DNA of 63,176 nt from an uncultured Flavobacteriaceae bacterium (lineage in GTDB: Bacteria > Bacteroidota > Bacteroidia > Flavobacteriales > Flavobacteriaceae): contig CALDUF010000004.1 in the NCBI GenBank assembly GCA_937923515.1, positions 1 to 63,176 of the forward strand, in the 5' to 3' direction. How positions within the stretch are numbered: position 1 is the first letter of the stretch; each line of letters opens with the position of its first letter. Under the pieces are notes generated by a model. That model ran no database searches. It was not told the DNA's origin and saw only the letters and a program-made list of their open reading frames with translations. Below, in pieces: positions 661-30,463 of this stretch. The position numbers and the translations under genes were made by a program.

Positions 661-3600
661 TTTGTTGGAGCAGGTTGTTGGTTTACAGTAACAGTAGCTG
701 TTCCTGTATTAGAGCCATTATCATCAGTAACTGTTAGAATCACTGTATTTGTTCCGATATTTGCACAAGTAAATGTTGTTATATCTGTATCAAAATTAAG
801 AGTTCCAGTACCTGTGCTACCATTGTTAACAGCGTCTTCGGCAATAGTTGCATTTCCAGAAGCGTCTAAACTTACAGTAATATCTTGAGTAATCACGGTT
901 GGTGTTTCAGTAGCAACATCAGAAGTGATATTAATATAATCAATTGCCATATCTGTTCTAAATGGTGCATTACTACCATTTGTGTTTCCAACAGGGTTTT
1001 CTGGTGTTGTTCCTTTAAAACGAAGTTTTATAATTTGATTGTCATAAGATGATAAAGATATATTTCTTATATCCCAAGCGTCTGCTTGGTTAGCTTGTTG
1101 TTCACCATCTAAAGTGTCTATATTAGCCCAAGTTCCTCCAAAATCGGTACTAACTTCAACATCTAATGTACCCATGTCTGAACCATGCATATGATAACGA
1201 AAAGAGAAATTTCCATTCTCACGACCAGTTAAATCAATACAAGGACTTTCAAAGTAAACAATGCTTCCAGGTCCAGGATCCTGATTTAAAGAACCTTCAA
1301 CATACATATAAAAATTATTAGCTTCTTGAGTTGTTGGAGCACTAGGATTAAAACCACCAGTTGGTCCTGTATCAGGTGAAGGTGTTCCGTTTGAATCTCT
1401 TGTCCAGCTACCATCATCTGCTGTTCCTTGGAACCATAAACCAGTACCAGTCTCAAACGTTTCAGTGTACGGATAATTTTGAATGGCACCTTCATCACAT
1501 AAAAGTGTTGTAAAAAATCCAGAAGTTGAAAACGAAGAAGTTGAAGTACTGCAACGTGTAGCAATTTGTACCTCATATTCAGTATTAACATTTAAACCAG
1601 TAAGTGTTTGAGTATTTCCAGTAATGTCTGTTAGTGTTGTCCAAGTTGATGCACTAGATTCTCTATATCTTAAATCGTAAGTTGCAGAAGGAACAATATC
1701 CCAAGTGAGTTCAATTGAATTTGTAGCTATAGTACTTGCAGTAAATCCAGTAGGTGGTGCAGAATCATCACACGGAATAGGGAAGTTGATAATTTTGAAA
1801 TCATCAAAAATAAAACCATCAAAAGTAGTCGTTAAATCGTCTTCTCTATTCGTATCATCAGAGTCAAATCTAAAGCGAAATTGTATATTGCTTTGTCCGA
1901 ATAAAAAGCTATTGTCTTGATTATCAATTAGAATTTCTTCCATAACCCATTTATCCATACTATCGCCATCATATACAACATCTCCAATAGAAGATTGATG
2001 TTGCCCTAGTACATTTGGATTACCATTACCATAAATTGCTCTAGAGTCTTCTGTTTTAGATATGTGGAAATTAGTTAAAAGTGTAGCTGCAGGTTTATTG
2101 TAGCGTCCGCATAGTGCATTCCAACTGCTACCACCATCTGTACTAGCTTCCAGTTGTACCATATCAAAGTTTCTTTCTAAATCCCACTTCGCAAAAAATT
2201 GAATTACTGCTTGGGATGAAGACGATAAATCAATAGTTGAATTTAGAGTTATCGATTTGTTTTCGTTGTTTGTGTAAGCACCTGACGGGGAATCTGTAAT
2301 TGCTGTAGAGCCTGCATAAGCATCAGTTGTAGTTCCCCAGCTTCCTCCAGAAGTAGTCCAATTTGAAATATCAGTATCATTATCTGCAAACAGTAGGCTT
2401 GGTTGGTAATACTTTACATAATTAGCGCGGTAAATGATAAAATCGTCGTTACTTAACGTTACTTGGAATTCTATTTCTTCATTTGGTTGAATACCAGCGT
2501 TTAATGTATATGGTATATTTAAACTTCTTTGTTCAAGTTTGGTCCATCCTGTTTGTACCGATGGTGACGTCATTGACGCTATGTTTGAAGACACAGGTGT
2601 AACTGTTAGCGTAATATCGTCATAAGTTTTACCCAAATACTCAACACCAAACGTTAAGTTGCCAGATGTAGTTGTAACATCACTTGTATTAAAATCATGA
2701 AGTTTAGCGTATTTACCAGAGTGAATTACTGAAAGGAAATTCATTCTAACAGCACGTCTTGCTATTTCAGTAATTAAAGGTATGGAAGGCCAAAAATCAT
2801 CTCCGTTTTCTGGAGCAAAAGCCAAAACATCTTTACCCGAACCAGAACTAGTTTGACCACCTGAGGTAACAGGAGCGCCACCAAGCATCCAGTCATTAAT
2901 ATCTCCATTTGCCTCATAAAGTGTATTTGGAGCAGAGCCAAAAATATAGCGATTATATTCTGTTAAGTCATGACAAATTTTAGCATATTCATCTTCTCTA
3001 CCAGAATCTGTAGCTCCAGCATCTCCGTTATAAGATGATGTAACAATAGAGTTTAGACCACCATGGTGGTTTACCGAAACTTTTATATCGTGTGATGTTA
3101 TAAATTCTTGAACAATTTGTGTTTCTGGCTCAGAAGCAGCAGAAGGACCTCTATAAGTATTACTAGATGTAGTTGGTGAAGATCCAGCATTATCCCAACC
3201 CCAATAGTAATTAAAATTTCTATTTAAGTCTACCCCGCGAACATTGTTATTCGAATTTGTTGTACCATTATCCGCAACACCTGGTCTTAAGTTTTTACGT
3301 TGTAATCCACCTCCAGAAGGTGCTATAACTTCGTTCCAACGGTAGCCATCAGGGTTACTAATAGGCATAATATATATTTCTTGGTTGTCTACAATGTTCT
3401 TTATGAACGGATCTGTATTGTAATTTTCAAGTATATACCACATGAAATAGAATGTATTCATTACACTACTAATTTCACGAGCATGCATCGCACCAGTAAT
3501 TAACGTTTCTGGTTCGTTTGGCTCATCTATATCTGGGTTATCAGAAATTCTAACATAATACACTTCCTGTCCTGCCCAAGTAGTTGCTCCAGTGGTGTTA

Positions 3601-5276: not shown

Positions 5277-6119
5277 ATGATAAATTTTAACGGAACACTT
5301 CTTGACGATAGCACCCATATTTCTATACATAATCGTGGTTATGCTTATGGTGATGCCCTTTTTGAAACTATTAAAGTGTCTAACAGTAAAATTTTATTTT
5401 GGGAAGACCATTATTTTAGATTAATGGCCTCAATGCGTATTATGCGCATGGCGATTCCTATGAATTTTACTATGGAATTTCTTGAAAGCCAAATAAAAGA
5501 CACCCTAGAGGCAAATCATTTTGAAAGTGGTAACGCGAGAATTAAAATTATTGTGCATAGAAATGAAGGTGGACTATATTTACCAAAGCAAAATACTATT
5601 AGTTATGTTATAAGTACAAAACCTATAGATGGTGCTACTTATAATATAACTGAAGCGTCTTACGAGGTAGATTTATTTAAAGATTATTTTGTAGCGCCAA
5701 CATTGCTCTCCACACTTAAAACCAATAACAAAGCTATTAATGTAGTAGGCAGTATTTATGCTAATGAAAATGATTTAAATAATTGTTTATTACTTAATAC
5801 AGATAAAAATGTAGTTGAAGCTTTAAATGGTAACCTGTTTTTGGTAAAAGGCACTGTTATTAAAACACCGCCGCTATCTGATGGGTGTTTAAAAGGTGTG
5901 ATGCGTACTCAAATTTTAAAGTTTGTAGAAAAGATGGAAGGTTTTGAGTTATCAGAAAGCTCAATTTCTCCTTTTGAACTTCAAAAAGCCGATGAACTTT
6001 TTATTACCAATGTTATTACAGGGGTTCAGCCTATTTCAAAATACAGAAAAAAAACGTTTAAAAATGATGTTGCTAAAACATTACTTAATTCGTTAAATAC
6101 TGTAGTAAGATTGTCTTAA
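5277..6119 (+). CDS. Class IV PLP-dependent aminotransferase (PabC/IlvE-like)
   Basis: 280 residues, typical for fold-type IV enzymes. Family features include NRGYAYGDALFETIKV near residue 19, the probable PLP lysine K152 (LKTNNKAIN), EALNGNLFLV near 181 and a C-terminal ELFITNVITGVQPI stretch. Such enzymes act as aminodeoxychorismate lyase (folate) or as branched-chain or D-amino acid aminotransferases; sequence alone does not settle the substrate. A short length and isolated position slightly favour the PabC type. The ATG directly follows a T-tract, with no Shine-Dalgarno. Its 3' end overlaps the convergent yqgE gene by 4 bp. Confidence 0.85.
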   Translation: MINFNGTLLDDSTHISIHNRGYAYGDALFETIKVSNSKILFWEDHYFRLMASMRIMRMAIPMNFTMEFLESQIKDTLEANHFESGNARIKIIVHRNEGGLYLPKQNTISYVISTKPIDGATYNITEASYEVDLFKDYFVAPTLLSTLKTNNKAINVVGSIYANENDLNNCLLLNTDKNVVEALNGNLFLVKGTVIKTPPLSDGCLKGVMRTQILKFVEKMEGFELSESSISPFELQKADELFITNVITGVQPISKYRKKTFKNDVAKTLLNSLNTVVRLS

Positions 6120-6676
6120 TTATAATTTGGATTTTCTGGAGCGTTAGACCATATACTGTATTCACCACCTAGTTCTAACATTTTTTCTTTCCAGAATGAT
6201 GCATAATCTTTTTCGATAATGTTTTTCTCATAAACGTTTTCAGAAACTAACCAAGAGTTTGCCTTAAGTTCGTCTTCTAATTGATTTGAATCCCAACCAG
6301 AATAGCCTAAAAAGAAGCGTATATCATTTTCGTTAATGGTATTATTGGTAATCAATTCTGCTACTTTTTTAAAATCGCCGCCCCAAAATATACCAAGCGA
6401 AATTTCTATACTATCTGGTATTAATTCTGGTACTTTATGTATAAAATAGAGGTTGTCTTGTTCTACGGGACCTCCATTATAAACCTTAAATGCAGCTTCT
6501 ACTTCTGGAATTAAATCTTTAATAGTATATTCTAAAGGTTTGTTTAATATAAAACCTATGGAACCATCTGCAGTATGATCTGCTAATAAAACAATGGAGC
6601 GATTAAAAGATACATCTCCAATTATGGCAGGTTCTGCAATTAACAAATCACCTTTTTTTGGGGTTGTGCTCGTCAT
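6116..6676 (-). CDS. yqgE: YqgE/AlgH family protein
   Basis: 186 residues, close to the family size. Diagnostic stretches are KGDLLIAEPAIIGDVSFNRS, VLLADHTADGSIGFILNKPL, the YNGGPVEQDNLYFIH turn and FFLGYSGWDSNQLEDEL. The family is soluble with an unclear role (AlgH was named from alginate regulation in Pseudomonas). It lies downstream of the HU gene on the same strand, but a strong terminator separates them, so it probably has its own promoter. Confidence 0.9.
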   Translation of the reverse strand: MTSTTPKKGDLLIAEPAIIGDVSFNRSIVLLADHTADGSIGFILNKPLEYTIKDLIPEVEAAFKVYNGGPVEQDNLYFIHKVPELIPDSIEISLGIFWGGDFKKVAELITNNTINENDIRFFLGYSGWDSNQLEDELKANSWLVSENVYEKNIIEKDYASFWKEKMLELGGEYSIWSNAPENPNYN

Positions 6677-13314: not shown

Positions 13315-14586
13315 ATGAAAAAAGCATTATGGGCTATTTTTGTGATATTAATAGTTTGCTTAGTTTTAGTGTATTGGTCTACGCATACCACATTAAAAAA
13401 GTTTGATACCTGTAGCTTACTAAATGGAAAGGCTATGGATAGTGTGGACTTTAAAAAACACGATTCTGTACTTATTATTCCTAACGATTTATACAAAAGT
13501 AATGCGGTAAAAAACCTGATACAAGGAGAGCAATATAGGAAGGCTTGGTCTACACCGGTAAAATTTCCTATTTTATTTTTAGATACGCTTTACGGAGGTG
13601 TAAAAATTCTTGAAACAGGTGGTGGTAAACAAACCCACTCTTTAGATATACAGGATAAAAATGGGATAATATATTCGATGAGAAGTATAAATAAAAATCC
13701 AAAACCATTAATTCCTGATGCACTAAAAGTTTTAGGTTTAGAGAATATAGTTGTTGATGGTATTTCATCGCAACACCCTTACGGCGCATTGTTGGCAGCT
13801 AAACTTGCAGATGCAATACAGGTGCTACATACAAATCCAAATGCATATTTTTTACCTAAACAACCAATTTTGGGAGATTATAATTCCAAATATGGAAATC
13901 GATTATTTCTGTTAGAATATGAAACTGAAGGTAAAACCAATTGGACGAGTTACAGTAACGTTCTTGAAATTATGGATACTGACGATTTGCAAGAATTGAA
14001 GGCAAAACACGGGGATAGAGTATGCATAAATAAAGCAGAATTTATAAAAGTAAGACTGTTTGATATGGTAATAGGTGATTGGGATAGACACGGTAAACAA
14101 TGGGGCTGGATTATAGAACAGAAAGATAGTAATTACGTAGCGCACCCGCTTGCAGGAGACAGGGATAATGCGTTTTTTAATATTGATGGACTCATACCAC
14201 TTTTGGCATCAAGCAAATATATCACCCCAGAGTTGAGGCCTTTTGAAAAGGACATAGAATTCTTTACAGGATTGGTTTATAATATTGACAGGTATTTTTT
14301 AATAAATACAGAGGCTTCGTTATTCGTAGCGCAGGCAAAACAAATTCAAAAACAACTAACTGATGAAAAAATTGATGCGGCATTTCGCGTTTGGCCAACA
14401 TCAATTTCAAAATTGCATCAAGAAGAAATTTCAGAAAAAATTAAAAGTAGGCGAGACAATTTAATTGTATATGCACAAAATTTTAAACGTATAATAGACG
14501 AACTTGGGATGCTAGACGAACCAGTTGTAGGTTCAGAGGATATTAATTTGCCTGAGCATTTGGCAAAATGTTTTGAGTGCGATTAG
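13315..14586 (+). CDS. Membrane-anchored kinase-like protein (stand-alone)
   Basis: 423 residues with one N-terminal transmembrane anchor (about 5-21) and the rest predicted outside the cytoplasm. I cannot name a family with certainty. Three stretches look like an atypical protein-kinase fold: a Gly-rich turn ETGGGKQTHSL (100-110), a catalytic-loop-like IGDWDRHG (253-260) and a metal-loop-like GDRDNAFF (281-288), reminiscent of Fam20C, CotH or HipA kinases. From memory, similar sequence occurs as a module inside large Bacteroidota metallophosphoesterase/surface-antigen proteins; here it stands alone. It has its own intergenic regions on both sides. Function unknown. Confidence 0.6.
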   Translation: MKKALWAIFVILIVCLVLVYWSTHTTLKKFDTCSLLNGKAMDSVDFKKHDSVLIIPNDLYKSNAVKNLIQGEQYRKAWSTPVKFPILFLDTLYGGVKILETGGGKQTHSLDIQDKNGIIYSMRSINKNPKPLIPDALKVLGLENIVVDGISSQHPYGALLAAKLADAIQVLHTNPNAYFLPKQPILGDYNSKYGNRLFLLEYETEGKTNWTSYSNVLEIMDTDDLQELKAKHGDRVCINKAEFIKVRLFDMVIGDWDRHGKQWGWIIEQKDSNYVAHPLAGDRDNAFFNIDGLIPLLASSKYITPELRPFEKDIEFFTGLVYNIDRYFLINTEASLFVAQAKQIQKQLTDEKIDAAFRVWPTSISKLHQEEISEKIKSRRDNLIVYAQNFKRIIDELGMLDEPVVGSEDINLPEHLAKCFECD

Positions 14587-15589: not shown

Positions 15590-15623
15590 AATTGATATAC
15601 AATAGCATTAATTTTTAATTCAA

Positions 15624-15631
15624 TACCTTTG
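15624..15631 (+). promoter_or_regulatory. -7 box of the riboswitch transcript
   Basis: TACCTTTG lies immediately before the 5' end of the cobalamin riboswitch, placing the transcription start a few bases into its P1 stem. Confidence 0.7.
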
Positions 15632-15632
15632 C

Positions 15633-15771
15633 ATTTTAGGGTTTAGCTTATTGCTAAGCAATTAGGAATCATGTTAAAATCATGAGCTGTCGCGCAACTG
15701 TAATTAGTTATTATAACTATAAGCCAGATACTATCCTTAAAAAATGATAATGCTTTCGCGATAAAAAAGCT
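15633..15771 (+). promoter_or_regulatory. Cobalamin riboswitch
   Basis: The core motif GCTGTCGCGCAACTGTAAT (15686-15704) matches the family signature GCTGCCCCCGCAACTGTAA, preceded by AGGAATC and followed by AAGCCAGATAC, the B12-box region (15721 on). P1 can form between TTTTAGG (15634-15640) and CCTTAAAA (from 15735). The L5 loop TCGCG (15690-15694) is exactly complementary to CGCGA (15757-15761) in the loop of a downstream hairpin GCTTT/AAAGC (15752-15770), the expected kissing-loop partner. Both loops differ from the usual C-rich/G-rich pair but remain complementary. It should control the PAS gene at 15859; no intrinsic terminator is seen, so translational control is more likely. Confidence 0.88.
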
Positions 15772-15858
15772 AAGTCAGTTATGTATACCTTTCTTTTTAG
15801 GCTATTTTGTAGTCTGTACGTGCTTGCTTCTTTTTATTTCGAATAAAATTATAACAAA

Positions 15859-16341
15859 ATGAAAACATTTAAATTAAAAAGAGGACCATTATTAAGTTGG
15901 GATATTTACGCCACTTATTTAGCTGAACAAGCCATAAATTTTAACAAAGAGTTAGAAATAAGTGTCTTAAAAAACTTTGAAGACCAATTTAACTGGCTAA
16001 TAGATACAGAATCGCTTTTAAAGCATAGAGATTACGATGCATTGGTATTAACCAATTATAATCAAGAAATTCAATGGGTAAATAAGGGTTTCACTAGGAT
16101 GACAGGCTATCCAGCAAAATTTGCTAAAGGTAGAATGCCAAAATTTTTACAAGGCGAAGCAACCTCTAAAGCAGGTGTACGTAACATAAAATCTCATTTA
16201 AAGCGTGGTGTTGAAGTAAAAGAAACATTGGTAAACTATCGCAAAAACGGAGATACTTATAATTGCGAAATACATATTCTCCCACTAAAAGATAAAAACG
16301 AAACAATTACGCATCTTTTGGCAATGGAAAAAGTGGTTTAA
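15859..16341 (+). CDS. LOV-like PAS protein lacking the photoactive cysteine
   Basis: 160 residues, soluble, a single PAS domain (about 60-160) after a helical N-terminus (about 12-55). The PAS resembles LOV domains: WVNKGFTRMTGYPAKF, then GRMPKFLQGEAT (91-102) where LOV proteins have GRNCRFLQG, then LVNYRKNGDTYNCEI (124-138). The Asn-Cys pair is replaced by Met-Pro, so the cysteinyl-flavin adduct cannot form. The flavin-contacting Gln (Q98) and Asn (N126, N135) positions are kept, so flavin binding remains possible. No output domain is attached. It lies downstream of a cobalamin riboswitch. Its 3' end overlaps the convergent acetyltransferase gene by 35 bp. Confidence 0.78.
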   Translation: MKTFKLKRGPLLSWDIYATYLAEQAINFNKELEISVLKNFEDQFNWLIDTESLLKHRDYDALVLTNYNQEIQWVNKGFTRMTGYPAKFAKGRMPKFLQGEATSKAGVRNIKSHLKRGVEVKETLVNYRKNGDTYNCEIHILPLKDKNETITHLLAMEKVV

Positions 16342-16885
16342 AAATTTTCCATTCGTCTTTTAAAATACCATAACAGCAAGTGTTTCGTATAAAACCGTCA
16401 TTAAGTATGACATTTTTACGTAAGATGCCTTCAAGTTTGCCTCCTATTTTTTCAACAGCTTTTCTAGAAGCAATATTACGTTCGTCCACACGAAATTCAA
16501 CTTTATCCATAGGCATAACTTCAAAAGTGTGTTGCAACATTAAAAACTTCATATGCATATTTAATCCTGTACCTTGAAAATTTCTACCTATCCATGTAGC
16601 ACCAATTTCTAAAACACGGTGTTGCCAATTAATATTCATATAACGCGTTGCGCCAGCATATGTGTTTGTTGCCTTATCCCAAATAATAAAAGGAATGGCT
16701 GTAGCGTTATTTTTTTGCTGCAATGCTGTTTCTGTATACGCCTTTAAATCCTCTGGAGTATCAATTTTTGTGGGCGAATATTGTACCAATTTAGGCGTAC
16801 GCGCTACAGCTTCTAAGTAATGGTAATTCTCTAATGTAAGTGGAGATAATTTCACTCTTGTATTTTCTAATATAATCTCTTGCAT
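16307..16885 (-). CDS. GNAT acetyltransferase, RimJ/RimL type
   Basis: 192 residues. The pattern VKLSPLTLENYHYLEAVA, GATRYMNINWQHRVLEIGATWIG, NFQGTGLNMHMKFLMLQHTFE and the acetyl-CoA-proximal RVDERNIASRKAVEKIGGKLEGILRKN is characteristic of RimJ/RimL-like GNAT enzymes that acetylate amino termini or small amines. Substrate unknown. The gene is convergent with and overlaps the PAS gene, and is divergent from the thioesterase gene with a 38-bp gap. Confidence 0.88.
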   Translation of the reverse strand: MQEIILENTRVKLSPLTLENYHYLEAVARTPKLVQYSPTKIDTPEDLKAYTETALQQKNNATAIPFIIWDKATNTYAGATRYMNINWQHRVLEIGATWIGRNFQGTGLNMHMKFLMLQHTFEVMPMDKVEFRVDERNIASRKAVEKIGGKLEGILRKNVILNDGFIRNTCCYGILKDEWKIFKPLFPLPKDA

Positions 16886-24538: not shown

Positions 24539-24937
24539 ATGATATTTTCTTTCACTAAATCTGATACCATAGGAGTGCTATCTAGTGGTTTTTGCTTGCT
24601 ACATTGTCTTGCCACACCTTTTTTGTTTGTAACTCAAACGCGTATTTCGCACTGTTGCGATTTAAAGCCGATGTGGTGGTCTAGTATCGATTTTATTTTT
24701 CTGGTTATTTCGGCTGTTGCTATATATAGAACAGTAACAAATACTACAAAAAAGTGGATGAAAATAGCGCTGTGGGTAAACTGGTTTTTACTCTTATTTT
24801 TTATTAGTAATGAAAATTCGAAATGGTTATATATACCAGAGCACTTTATTTATTTCCCAGCATTGAGTTTAATATTTTTACACGCTTATAATAGTGCGTA
24901 TTGCCAATGTAAAAAGAAGGGTTGTTGTGTTAATTAA
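24539..24937 (+). CDS. MerC-domain membrane protein
   Basis: 132 residues with about four transmembrane helices. It has the MerC-type CLLHC motif at 19-23 in the first helix, a second pair ISHCCDLK, and a Cys-rich tail (CQCKKKGCC). MerC proteins carry mercuric ions in mercury operons, but Bacteroidota homologues sit beside Fur/Zur regulators, as here, which suggests zinc or another soft metal. No other mer gene is present. The divergent regulator is 79 bp away across two operators. Confidence 0.85.
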   Translation: MIFSFTKSDTIGVLSSGFCLLHCLATPFLFVTQTRISHCCDLKPMWWSSIDFIFLVISAVAIYRTVTNTTKKWMKIALWVNWFLLLFFISNENSKWLYIPEHFIYFPALSLIFLHAYNSAYCQCKKKGCCVN

Positions 24938-25284
24938 TACTGCACTAATATCATAAATGTTAGTTTTTTGTTCACTTTAATGAAGTAAGTAGTTGTTTAA
25001 TTATTAACCTTGCTTGCATTTGGATATGTTAGATTTAAAGAATTTGATTCAAATTAATTTTTCTGTTAATACTAATTATAAGTAGCTGAAAAACAAATTA
25101 CTGATTGTTGCAGAGGTATTAATTTTGAATTTACCTATTTGAAAAATTGAAATAAATAAAAACTACTTAAACAAAAAGCTCGTAAGCATAATTATATTAG
25201 CACAAACAAAATATAATATCTCAAGCCAAAATTTAAATCACTGTTTGAGTTGTTTGAGCAGAAATTTAGTTAAAAGTATTTCTT
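24938..25284. other. Intergenic region before the TonB-dependent receptor
   Basis: AT-rich, with no credible ORF. I see no TGCAAC-N3-GTTGCA palindrome here, only isolated GTTGCA half-sites, and no clear TAnnTTTG box. A short direct repeat (GTTTGAGTTGTTTGAGC, near 25243-25259) lies just before the receptor. Confidence 0.55.
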
Positions 25285-27522
25285 ATGATTAAAAATACAT
25301 TGATAATACTATTATGTGTATTCGGGATATCCATTACAACTGCACACGAACTTAATGGTACAGTAATTTCAGAAGACAATGAAAAACCAATACAAGGTGT
25401 TGGAGTTTACAACAAAAGTTCTGGTGCATATACCTATACGAATGTATCGGGTTACTTTGAGATTGATGACATATCGGTAGGTGATATTATATACTTTTAT
25501 CAGTTAGGTTATAAAAATTATGAGTTAACTATTGATGCATCCCATCTAGACAGCACTATTAAAGTTATTATGGAAATATCATCTGCATCCTTAGATCAAG
25601 TTTTAATTGTTTCTAAAGTAAATGTGTTGAGTAGCTTTGTTGATGTAGATTTAAAAACAAGTCCTGTAAAATCCTCACAGGACATCCTAAGAAAAATACC
25701 AGGATTAATCATCGGTCAACATGCTGGTGGTGGTAAAGCAGAACAGATTTTTTTAAGAGGTTTTGATATCGATCATGGTACTGATATTGCTATTGATGTT
25801 GATGGTATGCCTGTAAATATGGTATCGCACGCTCATGGGCAAGGGTATGCCGATATGCATTTTATAATACCAGAAACTATTGAAAATTTAGATTTCGGAA
25901 AAGGGTCTTACTACGCAGATAAAGGTAATTTTAATACTGCTGGATATGTAGATATTAAAACAAAAAAAACAATAGATAAAAATAGTATTTCTGTTGAAGC
26001 TGGCCAGTTTAATACAATACGCGCCATGAGCATGCTTAAAATATGGGATGGTGAAAATAGTAACGCCTATGTAGCTAGTGAAATGAATGTAACAGATGGG
26101 GTTTTTGATTCTCCTCAAAATTTTAATCGTTTGAATATTATGGGGCGTTATAATTATAATAATTATAAAGATCAAGAATTTAACTTGTCGCTTTCGCATT
26201 TTCAAAGTAAGTGGGATGCTTCAGGACAAATACCACAAAGAGCTGTAGACCAAGGTTTAATTGGTAGATTTGGTGCCATTGACGATACTGAAGGTGGTAA
26301 TACTAGTAGAACCAATATTTGGATAAACCATATAAAACATTTAGATGAACACGCAAGTATTTCATCTTCAGCATATGTTACCAACTACGATTTTGAGTTG
26401 TTTTCAAACTTTACATTTTTTTTAGAAGATCCTGTAAATGCAGATCAAATACGTCAGTTTGAAGAGCGCACAATTATTGGAGCAAAAAGTGTTTTTGAAG
26501 AATCTTTTCATTTAGAGGATCACGACCAGCAACTAAAATATCGTGTAGGTATTGGGTTTCGTTATGATGATGTGAACGATGTACAATTATCTAGAACAAA
26601 AAACAGAAAGGAGTTGTTAGAACGTTTAGCCTTTGGTAATGTAGATGAGCTTAATGCGTTTTCATTTGCAGATCTTAATTATAAATTTAAAAAGTGGACG
26701 TTTAATCCAGGGCTACGTTTAGATTATTTTACGTTTGATTATGAAGATTTATTATCTGAAACTTATGATAGTAGGAGCGAAGATAAAGTACTATTAAGCC
26801 CAAAATTAAACTTTATATACTCGTCATCTCCAAAAGCCCAATATTTTTTAAAGACAGGTTTAGGCTATCACTCTAATGATACACGAGTTGTAACAGCACA
26901 AAGCGGTGAACAAATTTTACCAACAGCTGTAAGTACAGATTTAGGAACGATATTAAAACCAACAGATAAACTGGTGATTAATGCAGCTTTGTGGTCCTTG
27001 TTTTTACAACAAGAATTTGTGTATGTTGGTGATGCAGCTATTTTAGAACCTAGCGGAAAAACTGCGCGCTATGGTGTAGATTTTGGTTTGAGATATCAAA
27101 TAGCAGATTGGCTCTATTTTAATACCGATGTAAATTACACTTATGCAAGAAGTACAGAAGAGCCAAACGGACAAGATTTTATACCCTTAGCTCCAGATTT
27201 AACCTCGGCAGGAGGATTTACAGCGAATAATTTGGGGAATTTTTCTGGAGGCATAAGCTATCGTTACATTAAAGATCGTCCTGCTAATGAAGATAATTCT
27301 ATTGTGGCCGAAGGCTATTTTGTTACAGATTTAAACCTTAATTATAATTATAAGAATTGGACCTTTGGTTTGATAGTTGAAAATTTATTTGATGTAGATT
27401 GGAACGAAACCCAATTTGCTACCGAAAGTAGATTGATGAACGAGACAGAACCTATTGAGGAGATTCATTTTACACCTGGCGTGCCTTTCTTTTTAAGAGG
27501 AAAAGTATCGGTTAAATTTTAA
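25285..27522 (+). CDS. TonB-dependent outer-membrane receptor, possible metal uptake
   Basis: 745 residues. It has a Sec signal peptide (about 1-20), a carboxypeptidase-regulatory-like domain (about 22-95: LNGTVISEDNEKPIQGVGVY), a plug domain (KSSQDILRKIPGLIIG, then GGGKAEQIFLRGFDIDHGTDIAIDVDG in two overlapping parts) and a 22-strand-type barrel ending in Phe. The plug contains a His-rich SHAHGQGYADMHF loop that could bind metal. It imports a scarce nutrient across the outer membrane using TonB energy. Its place beside a Zur-type regulator suggests zinc, but no operator is seen upstream; a heme or siderophore substrate is not excluded. Confidence 0.85.
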   Translation: MIKNTLIILLCVFGISITTAHELNGTVISEDNEKPIQGVGVYNKSSGAYTYTNVSGYFEIDDISVGDIIYFYQLGYKNYELTIDASHLDSTIKVIMEISSASLDQVLIVSKVNVLSSFVDVDLKTSPVKSSQDILRKIPGLIIGQHAGGGKAEQIFLRGFDIDHGTDIAIDVDGMPVNMVSHAHGQGYADMHFIIPETIENLDFGKGSYYADKGNFNTAGYVDIKTKKTIDKNSISVEAGQFNTIRAMSMLKIWDGENSNAYVASEMNVTDGVFDSPQNFNRLNIMGRYNYNNYKDQEFNLSLSHFQSKWDASGQIPQRAVDQGLIGRFGAIDDTEGGNTSRTNIWINHIKHLDEHASISSSAYVTNYDFELFSNFTFFLEDPVNADQIRQFEERTIIGAKSVFEESFHLEDHDQQLKYRVGIGFRYDDVNDVQLSRTKNRKELLERLAFGNVDELNAFSFADLNYKFKKWTFNPGLRLDYFTFDYEDLLSETYDSRSEDKVLLSPKLNFIYSSSPKAQYFLKTGLGYHSNDTRVVTAQSGEQILPTAVSTDLGTILKPTDKLVINAALWSLFLQQEFVYVGDAAILEPSGKTARYGVDFGLRYQIADWLYFNTDVNYTYARSTEEPNGQDFIPLAPDLTSAGGFTANNLGNFSGGISYRYIKDRPANEDNSIVAEGYFVTDLNLNYNYKNWTFGLIVENLFDVDWNETQFATESRLMNETEPIEEIHFTPGVPFFLRGKVSVKF

Positions 27523-28675: not shown

Positions 28676-28705
28676 TTGTGAAAATTTTAAAAGATTGTAT
28701 CTTTG
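28676..28705 (+). promoter_or_regulatory. Promoter of SRP RNA
   Basis: TTG (28676-28678), 19-bp spacer, TATCTTTG (28698-28705), a few bases before the RNA. Confidence 0.85.
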
Positions 28706-28708
28706 CAG

Positions 28709-28806
28709 CCGGCAAGTCCTACACAACTAGCTCCTGTTGAATCCTCCAGGGCGGGAACGCAGCAAAGGTATACGGTTGTAGCAGTGTGATGTAGGTAGCT
28801 TGCCTT
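28709..28806 (+). ncRNA. ffs: Signal recognition particle RNA (4.5S type)
   Basis: A roughly 98-nt hairpin RNA. Its ends GGCAAG (28711-28716) and CTTGCC (28799-28804) pair, followed by CCTACA/TGTAGG. The apical part CCAGGGCGGGAACGCAGCA is the conserved Ffh-binding helix with its GGAA-type loop. A consensus promoter precedes it and a run of seven T follows. With Ffh it directs ribosomes making membrane proteins to the membrane. Confidence 0.93.
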
Positions 28807-28940
28807 TTTTTGTACACTACATTTAAATCTTGAAAACACTAATGTATCAAGATTTTTTGTTTCGCAAAGCATTCCCCACAAAGGTGGGCATCTTCAAAAA
28901 ATTATTATTGTATTTTTAAACGCAAAAAATTCTAAAAAGC

Positions 28941-30208: not shown

Positions 30209-30312
30209 GGTATTCTTTTCTTTTACTCGCCTGCTGCGAAAACTTTTAGCAACTTGTTGATAGATTTTATAAAAAGGTAACATAGTAACAGCCTTAATAT
30301 TGTAAATTCGCT

Positions 30313-30463
30313 GCGTTAGGGATAGTAGCGGCATCCTTTTGTTTTTAGGTATTGCGTTGTTTATATTTTACAACCATGCCACTATTTTATTAAGGTTTTC
30401 TGCCTGTGAGGAAATTACAAAAACAAAAGATATAGCGGATAGCCCGACCCGACAGGGAAACGC
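30313..30463 (+). ncRNA. Structured repeat element, copy 2
   Basis: Outer stem GCGTT (30313-30317) / AACGC (30459-30463). Inside are GGGATAGTAGCGGCAT, a long hairpin of TCCTTTTGTTTTT against AAAAACAAAAGAT with a large loop, then GATATAGCGGATAGCCCGACCC in pieces GATATAGCGG and AGCCCGACCC, and a CCC-GACA-GGG hairpin. Same block order as the copy at 20815. It fills most of the 307-bp gap between the lipoprotein and the aldolase gene; I saw no ORF there. Confidence 0.6.

Follow-up and report, generated by a model that had tools for sequence, protein, structure and literature searches.

A cobalamin riboswitch that may place a stand-alone PAS protein under B12 control in Flavobacteriaceae

Cobalamin riboswitches are expected to control the import of B12, its synthesis or its replacement. 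In the genome of an uncultured Flavobacteriaceae bacterium (assembly GCA_937923515.1), an RNA of this kind precedes a gene for a small PAS protein. This arrangement raises the questions of whether the RNA is a genuine and working riboswitch, what kind of protein it controls and how that protein might be connected to B12. The locus is part of a stretch of 63,176 nucleotides (positions 1 to 63,176 of the forward strand of contig CALDUF010000004.1), called the window below, to which all coordinates without a prefix refer.

The RNA matches the Rfam cobalamin riboswitch model RF00174 at 15622-15753 on the forward strand with 53.6 bits (E 1.6e-10) against a gathering score of 31.5, and this covariance-model check bears out the complete cobalamin riboswitch that a first-pass annotation had read from the letters. 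The match covers model positions 1-189, with the P6 arm as a large deletion, i.e. it is the short form of the family; our own model, R1, places the aptamer at 15632-15755. The aptamer stems covary: in an alignment of 16 sequences, 88.2% of the cells pair, compared to 24-49% when the partners are slid, and there are 33 double-change cells, compared to 12.8 ± 2.6 after shuffling. In the same 16 sequences, double changes occur in 12 of the 28 aptamer pairs, and one helix (3 pairs) never varies. The L5 letters TCGCG (15690-15694, forward strand) are complementary to the letters CGCGA (15757-15761) in L13, the loop of the P13 hairpin (15752-15770, forward strand), exactly where the first-pass annotation had located both sides of a kissing loop. 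The predicted kissing pair is thus CGCG with CGCG. The other cobalamin riboswitch of the same genome has UUCCCGC in L5 and CUCUCGGGU after the aptamer, which gives CCCG with CGGG, so the window pair is indeed unusual yet complementary, as had been claimed. The L13 letters CGCG are kept in 26 of 28 related leaders (the exceptions are L046 and L052) and, being nearly invariant within the group, the kissing pair contributes no covariation.

The adenosylcobalamin class II model RF01689 does not include the window riboswitch among its matches at E 0.001, and a class II identity for the window RNA was dropped for this reason. The same model scores direct-pair relatives in genomes G005, G006 and G028 at 27-28 bits, below its cut-off of 36.5. 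The window RNA shares with RF00174 riboswitches the core stems, the core letters, the predicted L5-L13 kissing loop and the placement in a 5' leader downstream of a promoter box, and it belongs to the same class as the genome's other riboswitch; it departs from the norm in its short P6 arm and in having CGCG in place of the CCCG/CGGG kissing pair. As judged from its sequence, it is a real, conserved B12 riboswitch of an RNA class that is already known.

Directly 5' of the aptamer is the sequence TACCTTTG (15624-15631, forward strand), a sigmaA-type -7 box of the form TAnnTTTG, a motif that the available part of PMC9723704 gives as the sigmaA -7 consensus of F. psychrophilum. The motif was assigned by its enrichment among 28 riboswitch leaders (that of the window, those of the 26 direct loci described below and that of L011): it is found within -30 to +6 of the aptamer start in 22 of the 28, compared to 21 of 840 background windows. 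The first-pass annotation began the riboswitch at 15624. The letters 15624-15631 are more likely to be the promoter box than RNA, and the rest of that delineation stands.

The leaders also tend to fold around the start codon. When the last 60 nt of each leader and 15 nt of coding sequence were compared to shuffles, the 28 riboswitch leaders had a mean z of -1.31, with 12 of 28 below -1.5, as z scores that are not independent because the leaders are related; in 11 control leaders, from PAS genes that have no riboswitch directly upstream, the mean z was +0.47 and none of the 11 fell below -1.5. The arms of the start-codon hairpin vary between lineages yet remain complementary. Pairing between the 3' side of P13 and the 5' arm of the hairpin has a mean z of -1.34, with nine leaders at 0.05 or below, among 26 leaders that are again related and non-independent; L052 and the window, which has no such hairpin in that test, were left out of this comparison.

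The window leader itself folds no better than its shuffles in the fixed-window test (z +0.58) or when its 239 nt (15632-15870) are folded whole (z -0.71). Its start hairpin shows up only with more coding sequence, as a proposed 5' arm (15829-15844, forward strand) and a 3' arm inside the coding sequence (15867-15882, forward strand), which form a hairpin enclosing the start codon with an arm pairing energy of -5.4 kcal/mol (0.039 of 2000 shuffles); the region 15825-15890 folds at -9.3 kcal/mol. A proposed anti-sequestor, composed of L13 and the 3' side of P13 (15755-15767, forward strand; 13 nt, 85% complementary), can pair with 15831-15843 and is a rival of the kissing loop. This pairing, whose energy of -7.4 kcal/mol is equalled or surpassed by a fraction of 0.0045 of 2000 shuffles (uncorrected), is one of ten inverted repeats listed. 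The unconstrained fold of the window leader already includes the start hairpin, and the energies therefore do not establish switching. The two mutually exclusive pairings, start hairpin and anti-sequestor, nevertheless suggest a translational switch that B12 turns off. With B12 bound, L13 would kiss L5 and leave 15831-15843 free for the start-codon hairpin, and translation would stop; with no B12, L13 would pair with 15831-15843 and the start would be open. A corrinoid riboswitch that activates is known from the available part of PMC10653944, which makes repression in the present case uncertain.

The controlled gene (15859-16341, forward strand; open reading frame and domain match) encodes a protein of 160 residues (160 codons). 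It looks like a single-gene unit, the next gene being a convergent GNAT acetyltransferase gene (16307-16885, reverse strand; open reading frame and domain match) that overlaps the end of the PAS gene. The protein contains one PAS domain, a PAS/LOV-fold domain at residues 60-155 (16036-16323, forward strand), matched by PF13426 (residues 60-153; 47.6 bits, cut-off 27) and PF00989 (residues 60-155). Its AlphaFold2 model (mean pLDDT 91.8) consists of an N-terminal helix (residues 11-44) and a PAS fold. The best 50 of 549 Foldseek matches (E up to 0.001) are all LOV domains, LOV-derived proteins or LOV fusions, and the best sequence matches are LOV kinases and YtvA-type proteins, so the description as a one-domain "LOV-like" PAS protein was right for the fold. 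A viral fold library gave generic PAS or kinase matches, none of them close.

The PAS protein shares with LOV blue-light receptors (YtvA, LOV histidine kinases) the fold, the overall sequence and residues G91, F96, L97, Q98 and N126; of the ten LOV-conserved residues listed in the available part of PMC4682037, five are kept. Unlike these receptors, it has no output domain and carries Pro94 (16138-16140, forward strand, placed by alignment) instead of the photoactive, adduct-forming Cys (GRMPKFLQ in the window compared to GRNCRFLQ), Cys136 (16264-16266, forward strand) for the second flavin Asn, and Glu157 for the flavin Gln. Pro94, Cys136, Glu157 and Asn126 are invariant in all 44 aligned relatives; among 90 short-ORF rows, which come from overlapping loci, Ala occurs at position 94 in two and Leu at position 136 in two, leaving Cys136 in 88. 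Pro at position 94 was at one point taken as the trace of a "lost" LOV Cys. This idea was dropped: long PAS proteins of related genomes (ORFs of at least 260 aa) often have Pro at 94 as well, and sometimes Glu at 157, and only Cys136 is distinctive. Cys at 136 is absent from all 18 rows of such long proteins, four of which have a gap at this position, and the two true LOVs among them read C-Q-N-N-Q. Cys136 is thus a mark of the short PAS family.

The nearest functional precedent for such a domain is BAT-LOV*, which likewise has Pro at the adduct position. According to the available part of Yee et al. 2015 (PMC4682037), BAT-LOV* binds flavin, is inefficiently photoreduced and is easily reduced by chemical means. 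It came from a search for proteins in which the other conserved LOV residues are kept, whereas two flavin contacts are changed in the window protein, and it belongs to a large regulator that also has an HTH module, whereas the window domain stands alone.

The pairing of riboswitch and PAS gene recurs among relatives, as a flavobacterial survey proposed in the first-pass annotation was meant to establish. RF00174 finds a riboswitch directly upstream of the related gene in 22 of 41 named loci, at a distance of 90-143 nt from the PAS gene, and R1 finds one in 26 of the 41. R1 is based on 16 sequences; 15 of these come from the 41 loci, and for them it is not independent. Of the loci that R1 contributes, L057 has RF00174 support too (as L008), and L049, L050 and L052 are found by R1 alone, none of them having been used in building it; L052 has a low R1 score (52.7 bits) and no clear L13. 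The remaining 15 loci comprise five with a riboswitch farther upstream in an operon, nine in which none was found and one (L074) that encodes an 810-aa protein outside the family. In a separate set of relatives, 22 genomes with short PAS proteins split into eight with direct pairs, five with receptor operons and nine with neither. Direct pairs are also found in two further families of the class (genomes G363 and G447), in two of the 16 genomes examined among the matches listed; the other 14 have no riboswitch beside the PAS gene. Inside the direct clade, the riboswitch was apparently lost before L034 and L047.

The conserved adjacency, the promoter box and the start-codon hairpins argue for a functional riboswitch and support the view that it is under selection and no relic, in line with the working sensor put forward in the first-pass annotation. 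A recent loss of a transport gene between riboswitch and PAS gene, which that annotation had named as a contrary scenario, was rejected, since riboswitch and PAS gene are directly paired in all of the 26 loci. An ancient loss, in which the direct arrangement arose from a receptor operon, may have taken place, as a BtuB-type receptor gene lies between riboswitch and PAS gene in other lineages.

These receptor operons are L071, L073, L075-L079 and L119. L075-L079 come from five genomes of the same genus, and three of them also contain a beta-propeller gene. A B12-receptor model is the best NCBIfam match, each time below its cut-off, for the receptors of L073 (Ferruginibacter), L119, L075, L076 and L077, the last three being those of L075-L079 that were scanned, and it is the second among the NCBIfam matches for the receptor of L071 (Croceivirga). 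In two Christiangramia loci the gene order is nrdB-nrdA-PAS (L069 and L070); the L069 riboswitch scores 30.6 bits with RF00174, below the cut-off, and the one in front of the L070 operon (L070:2118-2214) passes RF01689 with 39.1 bits (cut-off 36.5), unlike the window RNA. Operons with a riboswitch, metE and the PAS gene are found in Rhabdobacter L072, with a thioesterase gene in between, and in L120. The same riboswitch class, presumably with the same direction of control, thus governs metE, nrdAB and btuB operons and the window gene, but in the window the controlled gene is a stand-alone PAS gene with no enzyme or transporter beside it. A tree of 63 PAS proteins needs 10 changes between contexts, with L073 entered as "none" (it is really receptor-linked) and L100 as metE (it really has no riboswitch nearby). 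In L100, a 431-codon MetE-like ORF of about half the usual length (reverse strand 5350-6645) is found just before the PAS gene, which is followed by genes for a small Cys-rich protein and a thioesterase-like protein. In genome G032, two tandem cobalamin riboswitch matches (G032:C1:1441014-1441364; 38.7 and 29.5 bits, the second below the cut-off) are located just upstream of metE (1438527-1440809) on the same strand.

The link to B12 has a limit, which becomes plain when 299 sampled genomes of the family are counted. At E 1e-28, 75 of them have a match, and 73 of the 75 have a short PAS protein. In 14 of these 73 (12 direct, 2 in operons), a same-strand riboswitch is located no more than 3 kb upstream, and two more genomes, G045 and G681 (the contig of L050), are linked by other evidence, which brings the number to 16 of 73; the count omits one RF00174 match below its cut-off. 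At this sensitivity, 57 of the 73 short-PAS genomes have no cobalamin riboswitch linked to the PAS gene. An Rfam recheck of 23 of the 57 unlinked neighbourhoods (including G012, G020, G029, G037, G047, G057, L122 and L123) found none upstream, mostly over about 6 kb (2.6 kb in L109). L122 and L123 have riboswitches about 7 kb downstream of the PAS gene, which in L123 are two cobalamin riboswitches placed back to back on opposite strands (13770-13972, reverse, and 14103-14289, forward). B12 control of the short PAS protein is therefore recurrent but not universal, and the unlinked genomes imply that the protein has a role independent of B12 control.

A YciA-like thioesterase gene follows the PAS gene directly, with overlapping ends, in eight loci (L065, L069, L088, L098, L109, L115, L118 and L122). 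The other seven thioesterases are 67-92% identical to that of L065, and the match to the YciA model is below its cut-off. Four of the eight loci are linked to a riboswitch. L109 (reverse strand 2548-3497), L115, L118 and L122 form a conserved two-gene unit of PAS protein and YciA-like acyl-CoA thioesterase (78-85% identical to that of L065), which in the first three has no riboswitch and in L122 only the one 7 kb downstream. The thioesterase was rejected as a partner in the window genome, where a close homologue is absent and the best match is 37% identical.

The genome of the window (2.71 Mb, 87.6% complete) contains one other cobalamin riboswitch. It precedes a BtuB-type TonB receptor gene, whose best NCBIfam match is the B12-receptor model (below cut-off) and which diverges from a unit that contains a BtuC-type permease gene. 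The B12 enzymes encoded include MetH and two mutases, namely methylmalonyl-CoA mutase and a fused one of the IcmF type, which scores below cut-off in a partial stretch; MetE has no match in the 87.6% of the genome that is covered; with B12 enzymes present and no MetE match, the host probably depends on imported B12. Elsewhere in the window, a Flavo-1 RNA, a described small RNA, is found at 30305-30453 (forward strand; 55.3 bits, cut-off 42), a small SRP RNA of the Bacteroidales type at 28703-28809 (forward strand; 99.4 bits), and, at 24539-27522 (forward strand), a gene for a MerC-like membrane protein with a TonB-dependent receptor gene behind it, which may together serve metal uptake.

How the PAS protein is connected to B12 could be explained in several ways. 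The first-pass annotation had entertained a B12-light link, in which the PAS protein is a blue-light sensor that the riboswitch couples to photolabile coenzyme B12. The LOV fold speaks for it, as does BAT-LOV*, a natural LOV-like domain with Pro for Cys that binds flavin (available part of PMC4682037). Yet in the window protein the adduct Cys and two flavin-binding residues have given way to Pro94, Cys136 and Glu157, half of the ten LOV-conserved residues listed there are gone, and RF01689 does not recover the window riboswitch at E 0.001. Nor was a CarH-sized protein found in the genome, at its 87.6% completeness: its three PF02310 matches are MetH and two acyl-CoA mutases, and the PAS protein matches neither the MerR HTH nor the B12-binding domain by which CarH is recognized. 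With these replacements, the PAS protein does not belong to the adduct-forming LOV photoreceptors. A light link is very improbable, and this tempting but weak hypothesis was set aside. It is also improbable, if slightly less remote, that the PAS protein handles B12 itself by processing the imported corrinoid, e.g. as a flavin-based cobalamin reductase or a chaperone. Such a function would account for the PAS genes in receptor operons, and the invariant Cys136 speaks for it, but the PAS gene also occurs in metE and nrdBA operons, which serve life without B12, and there is no B12-binding family among the matches of the protein.

The least probable account is that the riboswitch was left behind when a receptor or another gene was lost and now drives the PAS gene by accident. 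The receptor genes found between riboswitch and PAS gene in other lineages and the seeming losses before L034 and L047 agree with it, whereas the tight spacing in the 22 RF00174 loci, the covariation of the aptamer, the retention of the L13 letters and of the promoter box (22 of 28 leaders) and the start hairpins do not. A better contender, possible though rather unlikely, is that regulation was captured without a shared function. The PAS protein would then sense metabolism or redox state in general, in some cases with an acyl-CoA thioesterase as its companion, and some lineages would have acquired B12 riboswitches for a useful signal, with the protein not acting on B12 metabolism. The 57 unlinked genomes and the PAS-thioesterase pairs that lack an upstream riboswitch are in its favour, but the repeated association with different genes of B12 scarcity (BtuB-type receptor, metE and nrdBA), in addition to direct control, is hard to explain without a B12-related benefit.

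Regulation of the PAS gene by the B12 riboswitch is, on the comparative evidence, well supported. The reading that we prefer, with modest confidence, is that a cobalamin riboswitch with its own promoter acts as a B12-repressed translational switch and releases a stand-alone PAS signalling protein when B12 is low. The protein would be made alongside the B12 importer under the genome's other riboswitch. Less certainly, it would be a cytosolic sensor or adaptor without an output domain of its own; its putative ligand may be a flavin serving as redox cofactor, or else some small metabolite affected by stalled B12 enzymes, and the signal may pass to a partner via the conserved N-terminal PLxxWDIY helix. 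The YciA-like thioesterase encoded alongside is a candidate partner in some lineages. A broader and more doubtful proposal, which we offer tentatively, is that the short PAS proteins of Bacteroidota serve the B12 regulon as a signalling arm. Induced through the riboswitch once B12 is exhausted, the cytosolic sensor would read the redox state or a backed-up acyl metabolite and adjust metabolism to life without the B12-dependent mutases and methionine synthase, in some lineages via the co-encoded acyl-CoA thioesterase. If this is true, a B12 riboswitch feeds a second, protein-based sensing step.

The novelty would lie in the target: the same riboswitch class appears repeatedly to govern a sensor-type protein, in place of the transport, synthesis or replacement enzymes that are the norm for RF00174. 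The first-pass annotation had called such a target unusual, and the sensor-type PAS protein directly downstream, an arrangement that recurs in other Bacteroidota, supports that view. In the accessible parts of the open-access literature on riboswitches and PAS proteins, a scope outside which most subscription journals fall, no description of a PAS protein under the control of a cobalamin riboswitch was found. The riboswitch, the PAS protein, its invariant Cys136 and, in some lineages, the thioesterase offer entry points for tests. In Bacteroidota, the supply of B12 may govern more than transport and replacement enzymes; if this is confirmed, bacteria that depend on B12 would answer its scarcity with a signalling response.
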